Source: Methanomicrobiales archaeon (GTDB lineage: Archaea > Halobacteriota > Methanomicrobia > Methanomicrobiales > Methanospirillaceae). From it: a DNA stretch of 57,213 bases. The position numbers and the translations under genes are program-made. Positions 19,063 through 24,054 of this stretch are shown here, in pieces. Numbering within the stretch: position 1 is the stretch's first letter; every line of letters begins with the position of its first letter. The stretch lies in contig JANXYM010000095.1 in assembly GCA_025350045.1 (NCBI GenBank), forward strand, positions 1 to 57,213. The letters are read 5' to 3'. Under the pieces are notes generated by a model, which saw nothing but the letters and a program-made list of their open reading frames with translations, had not been told where the DNA came from and did no database searches.

Positions 19063-19941
19063 ATGCGCGTCAGAGCGGTACCAAAGGAAAAGATCCGGAC
19101 TATCCAGGAAGAGGACTGGATCGACCGGAGCCGGAGTCCTTACGCGGAGGGCGGGATCCTCTGGGTGCCGGTAAAAGACGGTGCCTCATGTGACCGCGAG
19201 ATTCCCGAGATGTGTCAATACAGAGGAAGAGGTTATTTTATGATCGGCGAGGTAGCCGTCATTCACGGAAAGAAGCCTGCCTGTTCTGAAGTTGAAGAGA
19301 TTGTCCGGTTCCGCCACCCGCAGGGGGTACTCTGGATAGAGTCGCTCAATGAAGTGACACGGACCCCATCAACCGAGGTACTCTGGGGAGATGTCGGCGA
19401 AGTCCGGCATCAGGAAAACGGGTACTCCTATTTTTTAGATCCCCGCAGGGTGATGTTTTCACAGGGAAACCGGGAAGAAAAACTGCGCATGGCTACATTG
19501 GTGCAAGGGAGTGGCCTGCGTGAACGGGTGGCTGACATGTTTGCCGGTATCGGGTACTTCACCCTGCCCATTGGTGGGAGCGGGGGAAATGTCCATGCAA
19601 TGGAGATAAACCCGGTGGCATTTGCGTACCTTGAACGAAATATCATCGTAAACGGACTATCCGATCGCATTACTCCATCCCTTGGTGATTGCAGGGATCT
19701 TCTTTCCGGAACCTATAACCGGATCATCATGGGACATTTTGATGCGATTACCCTGCTGCCTGCGGCCTTGCAGCATGTGGAGGCGGGAAGTACCATCCAT
19801 GTCCACAGCATCGGCACTGTGAGAGAACAGATCGGGGAAATGTGCGAGAGCGCAGGTTTTTCTTCCACCATCATGGTACATAAAGTAAAGAAATACCGGC
19901 CACATGCCTGGCATGTGGTGCAGGATGTGGCACTTACATGA
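19063..19941 (+). CDS. tRNA wyosine-pathway aminocarboxypropyltransferase (Taw2-like)
   Basis: A class I SAM-fold enzyme of the Trm5/TYW2 group. The SAM motif is DMFAGIGYFTLPIGG near residue 160, followed by HAMEINPVAFAYLERN. The motif IV region reads IIMGHFDAITLLPAAL, not the NPP-type motif of Trm5 methyltransferases. This favours Taw2, which transfers the aminocarboxypropyl group of SAM to 4-demethylwyosine at position 37 of tRNA-Phe. The N-terminal about 130 residues carry the usual RNA-binding part. It follows nmd3 by 3 nt and overlaps coaBC by 4 nt (ATGA). A Trm5-like role cannot be fully excluded. Confidence 0.78.
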   Translation: MRVRAVPKEKIRTIQEEDWIDRSRSPYAEGGILWVPVKDGASCDREIPEMCQYRGRGYFMIGEVAVIHGKKPACSEVEEIVRFRHPQGVLWIESLNEVTRTPSTEVLWGDVGEVRHQENGYSYFLDPRRVMFSQGNREEKLRMATLVQGSGLRERVADMFAGIGYFTLPIGGSGGNVHAMEINPVAFAYLERNIIVNGLSDRITPSLGDCRDLLSGTYNRIIMGHFDAITLLPAALQHVEAGSTIHVHSIGTVREQIGEMCESAGFSSTIMVHKVKKYRPHAWHVVQDVALT

Positions 19942-21098
19942 CCCTTGTCCAGACCCTTGCCGGAAAACAGATCATTGTCGCCGTCACCGGCAGTATCGCT
20001 GCGGTTGAAATGATAAAACTCATCCATGCCCTGAGACGGCGTGGTGCGGTTGTCCAGCCGGTAATGAGTTCGGCAGCGGCCGGTATCATTCATCCGGACG
20101 CCCTCACCTATGCCAGCGGAAGGGAGACCATCCAGCGGTTGTCGGGCATGGTGGAGCATGTGCAGTATTGCGGGGATGAGGGAAGTGCAGATCTGCTGCT
20201 CATCGCCCCGTGCACGGCAAATACGATGGGTAAGATTGCTGCCGGAATCGATGACACAACCGTTACAACCTTTGCCACGACCGCCATTGGCAGTAAAAAA
20301 CCGGTGCTCATCGTTCCGGCCATGCACCACAGCATGTATCGTCACCCGGCGGTCCTGGAAAATATCAGGCGCCTGCAACTCTGGGGAATCGCCTGTGCAG
20401 AACCCCGGATAGAAGAGGGTAAGGCAAAGATTGCAGGGACCGAGGAGATCATTCTTATGTGCGAGCGTGCGATCCTGCACCAGCCACTCAGCGGACAGCG
20501 CGTCCTGATCACCAGCGGACCCTGCCGGGAACCGGTTGACGATGTCCGCGTGTTAACCACCCGTTCGAGCGGACTGATGGGCAGGGCGCTTGCTCTCCAG
20601 GCATACCGTCTTGGTGCTGAGGTAACGGTGGTACACCGTGATACATTTCCGTGCGTGAATAATGTGCATTGTGAAACTGCTGATGAGATGCGCACCGCAG
20701 TCCTTGACTGTTTTTCCGGAGAAAGGATTGATTTCTATATCAGTGCCGCGGCGATCTCCGATTTTGCACCAGGGAAAATTGACGGGAAAATCCCCAGCGG
20801 GAAACCTGTGTGTCTTGATCTTGAACCTCTCCCTAAACTTCTGGATGAAGTGTTAAAAAAATATTCTCCCCGAACCATTGCTTTCAAACTGGGCAGGAAC
20901 CAGGAAAAAAAGGCAAAGGAGATGATCGCTACAGGGAATATTGACATGGTACTGATAAATGCACCCGAAACCATGGGGAGCGTACGCGGGGAGTATGTGA
21001 TAGTAACGCGCACGGATACAACCCCTGTAAAAGGGATCAAAGAAGAGATTGCGGTTGCCATCTGGGAGAGATTGTTAGGTAAATCAACTGAGATATAA
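19938..21098 (+). CDS. coaBC: Bifunctional phosphopantothenoylcysteine decarboxylase / phosphopantothenate-cysteine ligase
   Basis: Makes 4'-phosphopantetheine from 4'-phosphopantothenate and cysteine in coenzyme A synthesis. The N-terminal flavoprotein CoaC part has VTGSIAAVE, a catalytic His region in YASGRETIQRLSG, and APCTANTMGKIAAGIDD and PAMHHSMYRHP. The C-terminal CoaB part has VLITSGPCREPVDDVRV, TTRSSGLMGRALA, SAAISDFAP and a lysine-rich FKLGRNQEKKAKE. The start overlaps the previous stop by an ATGA. The archaeal pantoate kinase and phosphopantothenate synthetase that supply its substrate lie 2 kb downstream on the same strand. Confidence 0.94.
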   Translation: MTLVQTLAGKQIIVAVTGSIAAVEMIKLIHALRRRGAVVQPVMSSAAAGIIHPDALTYASGRETIQRLSGMVEHVQYCGDEGSADLLLIAPCTANTMGKIAAGIDDTTVTTFATTAIGSKKPVLIVPAMHHSMYRHPAVLENIRRLQLWGIACAEPRIEEGKAKIAGTEEIILMCERAILHQPLSGQRVLITSGPCREPVDDVRVLTTRSSGLMGRALALQAYRLGAEVTVVHRDTFPCVNNVHCETADEMRTAVLDCFSGERIDFYISAAAISDFAPGKIDGKIPSGKPVCLDLEPLPKLLDEVLKKYSPRTIAFKLGRNQEKKAKEMIATGNIDMVLINAPETMGSVRGEYVIVTRTDTTPVKGIKEEIAVAIWERLLGKSTEI

Positions 21099-21141: not shown

Positions 21142-21239
21142 ATGAATATTTACATTTCCCGGTAAATCATACATACGGTTTTTTTAATAATACCGGAAAA
21201 AGGCAGGTAATTTTATATGGTGTTTTTGTAAATATTCAT
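21142..21239. promoter_or_regulatory. 13-bp inverted repeat around the HAMP gene promoter
   Basis: ATGAATATTTACA at 21142-21154 is matched exactly by TGTAAATATTCAT at 21227-21239. The second arm ends 2 nt before the HAMP-protein ATG (21242), overlapping the likely transcription start. The first arm lies about 100 bp upstream. The pair brackets a TATA box. It looks like a pair of regulator sites that could loop, or a hairpin; the regulator is unknown. Confidence 0.55.
21211..21218 (+). promoter_or_regulatory. TATA box of the HAMP/roadblock cassette
   Basis: TTTTATAT about 28 nt upstream of ATG 21242 is at archaeal promoter spacing for a leaderless or nearly leaderless transcript. No ribosome-binding sequence is seen before the ATG, which fits. 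Confidence 0.5.
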
Positions 21240-21241
21240 AC

Positions 21242-21670
21242 ATGTCCACTATGAAGAGAAGCGAGGCGAACCAGGTGCAGACTGGTTTTTCTTTCCAGAT
21301 CCCCATTTTTTACAAATTGATGGTAAGTATGCTCTTTGTCGCAACAATACCGATAATTCTCCTCGGGATCGTGTACATGGGTGATACTACCAGCATCATC
21401 AAAAATATAGGACTTGCTAACAGTATATTTATCATCACACTCATCACGCTGTCTGTTGTGGTTATGTGGAGTTTCTTCCTGGCAAACAGTATCACGAATC
21501 CGATAGTCAAGCTCTCTAAGATTGCCAACAGTATGAGTACCGGAGAATTGAAAAATCCTGAAATTGAGTTGCTCAGTAACGATGAAATTGGTGAACTTCA
21601 GACAGCATTCAACCGGATGATCAATACCTATAAAATTCTGGATACCCTGTCAAAAGAAGATACTGAATAG
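21242..21670 (+). CDS. Two-helix membrane protein with HAMP domain and no output domain
   Basis: A 142-residue protein with two transmembrane helices (about residues 22-45 and 58-80) separated by only a dozen residues, so there is almost no extracellular sensor. A HAMP domain follows (SITNPIVKLSKIANSMSTGE and NDEIGELQTAFNRMI, about 80-133). The protein ends soon after, with no kinase, cyclase or chemoreceptor module. It probably passes a membrane signal to a separate partner. The next two genes encode roadblock/LC7-type proteins, and the three likely form one cassette. Confidence 0.75.
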   Translation: MSTMKRSEANQVQTGFSFQIPIFYKLMVSMLFVATIPIILLGIVYMGDTTSIIKNIGLANSIFIITLITLSVVVMWSFFLANSITNPIVKLSKIANSMSTGELKNPEIELLSNDEIGELQTAFNRMINTYKILDTLSKEDTE

Positions 21671-21801
21671 GTAAAATAACCGATATTTCCCGGTCATCAC
21701 CGTATCAAATCCAGAGCAATGGATGCCCGGGAAATCATTTGATCCATCCTCCCGGAACAACCTGCATGATATACAAAACCTGAATACTTCGGTGAATTTC
21801 G

Positions 21802-22152
21802 ATGCTCAAACAGATCCTCAACAAATTTCTCATAATTCCGGGAGTCCAGGCTGCAATTGTGGTAGAAGAGAACGGTGAGATCATCGAAAGCATCAAATCA
21901 GGAATTGTAATTGATAAAAAAAACCTCGATACTATAATCTCTACCGTTATGCTGGACTCAAAATCCACAGCATGGCGTTTTGGAAATGCCCCCCTTTCCA
22001 TGGTGTTTGTCGAATTTTCAGATAATTTTATTATTCTTGGACCGATTGCGGAGGAATTCTACCTGATCCTTATTGCGAAAAACACGGCAAATATCGGGCA
22101 GATCACCTATGAAATGAAGAAGAACCAGGGAGATATCGTTTCAGAATTATGA
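21802..22152 (+). CDS. Roadblock/LC7-like domain protein
   Basis: A 116-residue single-domain protein of the roadblock/LC7 type, related to MglB-like GTPase regulators. The pattern is an N-terminal helix (LKQILNKFLIIPGVQAAIVVEENGEIIES), a central helix with IISTVML, and strands ending in ILGPIAEEFYLILIAKN, then a C-terminal helix. Roadblock proteins dimerise and usually regulate a small Ras-like or Mgl-type GTPase. No GTPase is encoded next to it. Its stop overlaps the next start (ATGA), so it is co-translated with the roadblock fusion downstream. Confidence 0.72.
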   Translation: MLKQILNKFLIIPGVQAAIVVEENGEIIESIKSGIVIDKKNLDTIISTVMLDSKSTAWRFGNAPLSMVFVEFSDNFIILGPIAEEFYLILIAKNTANIGQITYEMKKNQGDIVSEL

Positions 22153-23045
22153 TCGAACAGTTGCCTGAAGGAAAAAGCATCGGATGGATGCAGGCCCCCC
22201 CGCAGTGGATATTTTCTCATACCGTACGATTCATTGGTGTTGTGAGGATCGTTATCCAGGATGGCGAAGGGTTTATTCTCATAAAAAAGGGTAACCCGAT
22301 TTACTATTACTTTAAACACGGGAGAATTGAATTAAAAGGCCATTCAGCCCTGGATTATTTCAACTCCCACCCGACCATTGAATTTAATCTCTGTAAATAC
22401 ACCCCGGAAGAATTTGCACTGGCAATGAAGATCTGCAATATCGAAGAAGCGAGTCCCAAGGAACTCATTGAACCCGAATCTCAAAAATCCGTAATAACCG
22501 AATCCACACCGAAGCGACCGGCACCTGTCGAAGATCCTGCTCCAGAACCCGTGCCAGGACAGGTCCAGGAACTATTCGAGGTGCATGTAGCAGAACCAGT
22601 CTTGTCACCAATGCCTGTGGACACGATTATAAGGCGCTCCTTATTCCCCTCAAATGCGATCCCGGTTGAAGAGCCGCCCACGGTCCCGGAACCGGTGATA
22701 CTGGAAGAATCCGATATCAAACTGATCGGTCAGATTAAAAAACTCAATGGAATTGTTGCCATTTCCGTTTTTAATGATGAGCGCAATATTCTCCTCATGG
22801 GAGATGTGGATATAGACCCGCTCTTAAAGATTGCACGCAGTATGCTTGCAACAACCCGAAAAATCTCTCCTCTGGTTGAATGGGGATCGTTTGTCCACAT
22901 GACACTCCAGATTCCTGAGGGAAATGTGATCATAGCACCATTCCATGATTTTTTCCTCTGTCTGCTAACCACAAGGACGATAAATATCGGGCATATTCGA
23001 AAAATCCTTCGCGATCTCCAGCTTACAACGAATGCCCAGAATTGA
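22149..23045 (+). CDS. DUF4388-like N-terminal domain fused to a roadblock/LC7-like domain
   Basis: Residues 1-95 resemble the DUF4388-type beta-rich module (GVVRIVIQDGEGFILIKKGNP and FKHGRIELKGHSALDYF). A proline/glutamate-rich, disordered linker spans about 100-190. Residues 195-298 form a second roadblock-like domain (IKLIGQIKKLNGIVAISVFND, ending NVIIAPFHDFFLCLLTTRT and a C-terminal helix). The two roadblock proteins could form a heterodimer. The domain assignment rests on pattern only; the N-terminal domain family is the less certain part. Confidence 0.65.
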   Translation: MIEQLPEGKSIGWMQAPPQWIFSHTVRFIGVVRIVIQDGEGFILIKKGNPIYYYFKHGRIELKGHSALDYFNSHPTIEFNLCKYTPEEFALAMKICNIEEASPKELIEPESQKSVITESTPKRPAPVEDPAPEPVPGQVQELFEVHVAEPVLSPMPVDTIIRRSLFPSNAIPVEEPPTVPEPVILEESDIKLIGQIKKLNGIVAISVFNDERNILLMGDVDIDPLLKIARSMLATTRKISPLVEWGSFVHMTLQIPEGNVIIAPFHDFFLCLLTTRTINIGHIRKILRDLQLTTNAQN

Positions 23046-23145: not shown

Positions 23146-24054
23146 ATGAGGAAAAACGCCCAACTATTTTCACATACTCTTGGAGGACTTCCCATCAGAC
23201 ACAAAACGGTTGTAGCATTCTGCCCGGGCCACATTTCCGGCTATTTTAAAAAAGTGGCGGGGAGCACAGCATTGACTACGGGAAGTATTGGTGCGGGGAT
23301 TGTTATCACGGAAGGAGTGACTGCAACTGTCCGCCATGCTGAATTTCCTTCTGTCATTATCCGGCATCGGGCAGCGAATGGTGCAACATCACTCATCTCA
23401 CAAAAATCCCCCCCAATCAGTTCAATCATGGAACGAATGGGAGTGACTGCAACGGTCACCACGGAATGTCACCTGCCGATTGGAGCGGGATTCGGCCTTT
23501 CTGCTGCAGCTCTTCTGGGAACGGCTACTGCATTGAACCGTCTCTTTTCCCTCGGGTTGACCTCCTGGGATATTGCCCGCCACTCCCATGAGATTGAAGT
23601 TGAACACAGGACCGGACTTGGCGACGTAGCAGCTGCTCAGGAGGGCGGACGGGTCGTCCGGCACGGTCCGGGAATCGATGCAGTGATTGAAAGGAAATTT
23701 GATCTGCCGGAACCCCTGTATTCTGTAAGTTTCGGGCCTATTCATACACCAACGGTTCTTGGTTCCCCCTCCCAGATGGAACTGGTCTCATCTGCTTTTC
23801 CCACAAAAACACCTGCTGGTGCACGGGAGTTCTTCACACTCTCACGGCAGTTTGCCGAGAGGAGCGGACTGATGACAGGCCCGGTACAGCAAGTGTTCAG
23901 GGCATGCGAGGAAGAGGATATCCCGGCTGGTATGACCATGCTTGGCAACGGCGTCTTTGCCTATGGAAAAAACGCCCGGGAAGTCCTTGCTCTTTTTGGC
24001 GAGGTGTACGAGTTCGGGGTATCTCCCACCGGTCCTCGGATCGTGGAGGTTTAA
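23146..24054 (+). CDS. Pantoate kinase (archaeal GHMP type)
   Basis: Phosphorylates pantoate to 4-phosphopantoate, the archaeal replacement for the bacterial pantothenate kinase route. GHMP-kinase motifs are FCPGHISGYF near residue 30, the ATP-binding PIGAGFGLSAAALLG near 110 and an EVEHRTGLGDVAAAQEGG stretch near 150. The C-terminal glycine motif reads GNGVFAYGKNA. The first about 24 residues go beyond the usual family start; no internal ATG is available, so either the N-terminus is extended or a non-standard start is used. The next gene, 2 nt downstream, is the ligase of the following step. Confidence 0.88.
   Translation: MRKNAQLFSHTLGGLPIRHKTVVAFCPGHISGYFKKVAGSTALTTGSIGAGIVITEGVTATVRHAEFPSVIIRHRAANGATSLISQKSPPISSIMERMGVTATVTTECHLPIGAGFGLSAAALLGTATALNRLFSLGLTSWDIARHSHEIEVEHRTGLGDVAAAQEGGRVVRHGPGIDAVIERKFDLPEPLYSVSFGPIHTPTVLGSPSQMELVSSAFPTKTPAGAREFFTLSRQFAERSGLMTGPVQQVFRACEEEDIPAGMTMLGNGVFAYGKNAREVLALFGEVYEFGVSPTGPRIVEV

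Follow-up and report, generated by a model that had tools for sequence, protein, structure and literature searches.

A conserved HAMP-roadblock gene module in Methanomicrobiales is a candidate kinase-free signalling unit acting on an unlinked MglA-family GTPase

Three adjacent genes, encoding a sensor-less HAMP protein (the HAMP stub), a single-domain roadblock protein (RBL) and a roadblock fusion protein (FUS), form a conserved module of the Methanomicrobiales, found here in a 57,213-nucleotide stretch of archaeal DNA (the window, which means the whole stretch analysed). The module probably acts as a membrane-to-cytosol signalling unit. We give roughly even chances to its being a conservon-like unit without a kinase, in which a HAMP dimer would switch an RBL/FUS platform that acts on an MglA-like GTPase. 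The three genes span positions 21242-23045 on one strand, between coaBC and a GHMP kinase gene, and the locus is laid out as follows:

19938-21098: coaBC, the left neighbour
21142..21154, + strand: left arm (ATGAATATTTACA) of a perfect 13-bp inverted repeat, an arm that relatives lack
21212..21218, + strand: TATA-like box, ~27 nt upstream of the ATG (sequence and upstream alignment by eye)
21227..21239, + strand: right arm of the same repeat, after the TATA-like box and ahead of the ATG
21242..21670, + strand: HAMP stub, two transmembrane helices, HAMP domain and short tail (Pfam, hydrophobicity peaks)
21802..22152, + strand: RBL, a single-domain roadblock/LC7 protein (Pfam, AlphaFold, Foldseek)
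22149..23045, + strand: FUS, an N-terminal domain joined through a disordered linker to a roadblock domain at the C-terminus (Pfam matches of homologues, AlphaFold, fold comparison)
23146-24054: GHMP kinase gene, the right neighbour

The HAMP stub (142 residues) consists of a first transmembrane helix, a short loop, a second transmembrane helix, the HAMP domain and a brief tail. Its helices appear as two hydrophobic peaks, at approximately residues 25-45 and 59-81, and Pfam places the HAMP domain at residues 79-128 (PF00672, E 3.6e-11; score 43.6 bits, cut-off 25). Across 19 homologues the loop between the helices measures only ~15 residues, leaving the stub without an extracellular sensor domain. 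On the cytosolic side, HAMP is the sole domain, the protein stops 14 residues past it, and the Pfam search gave no HATPase match, so the domains of a histidine kinase are absent. The initial annotation had described a two-helix HAMP protein with neither sensor nor output, and Pfam, the hydrophobic peaks and the short loop bear this out.

Roadblock proteins are of the kind that control small GTPases. RBL (116 residues) matches Pfam Robl_LC7 (PF03259) at 27.8 bits, above the cut-off of 23, and its AlphaFold model (mean pLDDT 87) has the element order a-b-b-a-b-b-b-a. Foldseek matched this model to Asgard roadblocks (E 4e-9 to one of them), a Streptomyces roadblock and MglB, and CvnB5 is the best match of the RBL profile among PDB sequences. 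The FUS protein of the window (298 residues) matched no Pfam family by itself, and Robl_LC7 was matched by 12 of 26 FUS homologues. Its AlphaFold model contains two confident domains, at residues 1-96 and ~185-298, joined by a disordered linker. The C-terminal domain has a roadblock fold (Z 14.7, rmsd 2.1 and 111 aligned residues against 9jue, an Asgard roadblock), with p14/LAMTOR2 and MglB as the next structural matches; these VIA-align fold comparisons cover the C-terminal domain, and residues 1-96 lie outside them. The roadblock identity of RBL and of the FUS C-terminal domain, which the initial annotation had put forward and exposed to structure prediction as its refutation test, is therefore upheld by AlphaFold and comparison with the PDB. 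As for the FUS N-terminal domain, a kinship with DUF4388/PATAN or DUF2226 is a lead at most: of 41 members, 3 gave a weak profile match to DUF4388 (lowest E 0.078) and 5 to DUF2226 (lowest E 0.001), and PDB sequences gave no match.

The stop of RBL and the start of FUS share four nucleotides (ATGA), here and in the other seven loci checked, and this overlap suggests that the translation of the two genes is coupled. In the first survey of 60 genomes, the HAMP stub was present in 19 (own genome counted), and the HAMP-linked, close-type FUS occurred in exactly the same 19. When 20 more loci, drawn from other genera and families, were added, 38 Methanomicrobiales genomes had a long-enough, readable contig, and the order HAMP-(RBL)-FUS on one strand was kept in all 38. 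RBL is absent only in one family (f5, Methanoculleus-like), where FUS directly follows HAMP. The cassette proposed from the window alone is thus supported by Pfam, structure prediction and a gene order that, apart from the RBL-less family, extends to other Methanomicrobiales; the second refuting outcome named in the initial annotation, a gene order without conservation, likewise did not occur. A search of 247 genomes from the phylum found the stub in this archaeal class alone; the wider FUS family extends to at least one more family. In a tree of 40 FUS proteins, a branch supported at 100/99 sets all 31 HAMP-linked ones apart, and these 31 are largely grouped by family. On this tree, the HAMP-linked clade has a single origin and is an old duplicate, inherited mostly vertically. 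The gene neighbourhood of the module varies between families, the surrounding genes including coaBC, a pantoate kinase-like gene and others. A shared downstream gene as the output of the module was rejected on this account, the neighbours being aminopeptidase-like, UvrD-like or others depending on the family, as judged by eye.

None of the loci read has a GTPase gene close to the HAMP module, in agreement with the initial annotation, which had found none adjacent and had proposed looking for a co-occurring MglA-like GTPase. Such a GTPase is encoded on another contig of the same genome (G000:C109:755-1264), as a single-domain protein of 169 residues. In two congeners (L169, L170) its gene adjoins one reading like elongation factor 2. 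The G3 motif GTPGQ, invariant in five orthologues of this GTPase, is a signature of MglA Groups 2-5 (PMC4316618), and by its sequence the unlinked GTPase is a member of the MglA family within these groups. MglA is also included among its PDB matches, though not as the best. Group 4 is the methanogen MglA group, for which no conserved gene neighbours were found (PMC4316618). Of the 19 genomes that carry the HAMP module, 18 have the GTPase, versus 18 of the 41 that do not (Fisher p 1.5e-4), and it is present in 35 of 45 genomes with any FUS match versus 1 of 15 without (p 1.4e-6); both comparisons draw on 60 genomes, are uncorrected for shared ancestry and include some counts affected by assembly gaps. 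Exceptions occur in both directions: G003 has the GTPase and no roadblock at E 1e-4, and G017, which is 82% complete, has the module, the GTPase not being found there. In two genomes lacking FUS, G001 and G016, the GTPase gene is present only as fragments (G001:C72:40215-40701; G016:C1:485756-485950), as if it had been lost together with the roadblock pair. A further candidate for joint decay of RBL, FUS and the GTPase, G006, was set aside because its assembly has further reading frames that seem disrupted.

All contacts between components in the following scheme are ones that we infer. The HAMP stub would dimerise in the membrane and, because it has no sensor domain, its dimer would change packing state in response to the membrane itself or to another membrane protein that serves as its partner. 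A roadblock dimer, made up of RBL and the FUS C-terminal roadblock, would sit on the HAMP tail; where RBL is absent, FUS alone would dock there. The docked platform would then control the location or the nucleotide state of the unlinked GTPase. A type IV pilus-like machine is a possible output, because a paralogous RBL-FUS pair adjoins pilB3/pilC-type genes. The co-occurrence given above and the nearest structures of RBL and FUS, which include MglB, CvnB5 and Asgard roadblocks, count in favour of a link between module and GTPase; against it count the unlinked position of the GTPase gene, its frequency in genomes without the module and the dispensability of RBL in one family.

The same paralogous pair lends itself to a different explanation, in which the roadblock proteins need no GTPase and instead scaffold or directly regulate a membrane machine (for instance, a type IV pilus-like ATPase), with the HAMP stub as anchor and switch. 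The paralogous pair stands apart from the HAMP-linked clade and belongs to a gene cluster at ten loci, one of them in the own genome. In 8 of these 10 loci it is adjoined by pilB3/pilC-type genes, and in 8 of 10 its opposite flank carries FrhG/FrhA-like hydrogenase genes. Archaeal type IV pilus loci are known to carry roadblock proteins (arCOG02603; PMC4858521), and by gene context the paralogous pair is of this kind. These associations, and the lack of a nearby GTPase gene at every HAMP module locus read, argue for a GTPase-independent function. The HAMP-linked pair, in contrast, belongs to a separate clade and had no pilus genes beside it in the loci read; moreover, the module co-occurs with the MglA-like GTPase, and MglB, which acts on MglA, is among its nearest structural relatives. 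On balance, we consider a role without a GTPase rather unlikely. As an observation on the paralogous cluster itself, the arrangement of FrhG/FrhA-like, RBL-FUS and pilB3/pilC-type genes is kept across Methanomicrobiales families (L073 4666-15154; L074, L076, L077, L078, L080). Other roadblock genes of the own genome were rejected as parts of the module: one copy lies near a Yip1 gene on contig C26, and another is on contig C88. The C88 gene is directly followed by two response regulators with a MetOD2 output domain (L071 225-1983), which hints at another roadblock-coupled signalling unit.

Alternatively, the stub could form mixed dimers with full-length HAMP receptors, such as chemoreceptors and histidine kinases, with RBL and FUS serving as adaptors or insulators. 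Its HAMP core is canonical (NDEIGEL) and similar to those of kinases and chemoreceptors, and HAMP receptors are abundant in these genomes. However, members of the stub family are 54-93% identical to the window protein, far above the identity to any receptor HAMP of the same genomes, and the stub is always accompanied by FUS. The stub is also more conserved than RBL and FUS, with invariant residues in the HAMP core and in both transmembrane helices; those in the helices suggest a dedicated partner. Mixed dimerisation is improbable in the light of these features. Longer HAMP proteins of the same class (~270-350 residues) also exist, at L082 2009-2956 and 4002-4814 and at L083 4870-5823. They are related to the stub over the second transmembrane helix and HAMP and are probably Af1503-like, a likeness noted for proteins of ~320-350 residues; a roadblock gene did not turn up in their vicinity at either locus.

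The reading of the module as a kinase-free unit acting on an MglA-like GTPase can be placed against known systems. The solved HAMP structures closest to the stub by sequence are those of Af1503. Af1503-like archaeal receptors have a sensor domain and no recognisable effector, and Af1503 itself is paired with the STAC protein Af1502 (PMC4834066). The stub resembles them as a two-helix protein with HAMP as its sole cytosolic part, coupled to a small downstream protein; unlike them, it has no extracellular sensor domain, and its partner is a roadblock protein or roadblock fusion rather than STAC. The HAMP protein of the actinobacterial conservon CvnA-CvnD is itself a histidine kinase, with the GTPase encoded by an adjacent gene (PMC13343842; also PMC4316618). 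The likeness here lies in a transmembrane HAMP protein adjoining a roadblock protein and in the match of the RBL profile to CvnB5, whereas the module has no histidine kinase domains, its GTPase is outside the operon and CvnC was not found. With MglA/MglB of Myxococcus and Thermus, the module shares the roadblock fold of RBL and FUS and a genome that encodes an MglA-family GTPase. It differs in its membrane HAMP partner, its roadblock fusion and an unlinked GTPase from another MglA group. In Myxococcus, type IV pili are one output of MglA (PMC7668184). In our analysis, the module comes nearest to a conservon stripped of its kinase and with its GTPase gene at a separate site, and it is filed in neither the Af1503-like nor the conservon class because it lacks a defining feature of each.

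A search of open-licence papers found no description of a HAMP-plus-roadblock combination in archaea, and a kinase-free membrane-to-GTPase module seems to be undescribed. It is somewhat more doubtful than an even bet that this is a kinase-free archaeal transmembrane G-protein system, with a sensor-less HAMP dimer directly switching a roadblock platform, which in turn gates an MglA-family GTPase whose gene lies elsewhere. If true, HAMP-only proteins would gain a direct effector. Af1503-type proteins of this sort are models for transmembrane signalling, and the module offers a candidate effector for them, as well as a candidate regulator for methanogen MglA GTPases, for which earlier work had found no conserved neighbours (PMC4316618). 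Both ideas are open to bench testing.

The initial annotation had also given the module an inverted-repeat promoter. The TATA-like box lies between the arms, is kept in several congeners and is a putative archaeal promoter element, and its distance from the ATG suggests that the module mRNA is nearly leaderless. The repeat is real, perfect over 13 bp with 72 nt between its arms, and its 13-mer has no further exact copies in the 2.5-Mb genome. A length of 13 bp is reached by 0.3% of dinucleotide shuffles (p ~0.003) of the AT-rich 143-bp intergenic region. It is lineage-specific, however: 4 of 10 congeners keep the right arm, immediately ahead of the start codon, with two mismatches, and none of the relatives examined has the left arm, so the repeat was rejected as a conserved element of the module. 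That the repeat serves a dimeric regulator as its operator and marks a regulated promoter of the module is very doubtful, its perfect arms, shuffle statistics and placement of the right arm between TATA-like box and start codon being outweighed by the loss of the left arm in even the nearest relative and by the mild rarity of one such repeat over all intergenic regions of the window. The repeat may be a local operator, which does not define the module. Elsewhere in the genome, the 13-mer CTGAATAGTTACA occurs ~130 bases from the start of contigs C11, C26, C42, C85, C90 and C115, and its position near several contig starts suggests a repeated element that breaks the assembly there.
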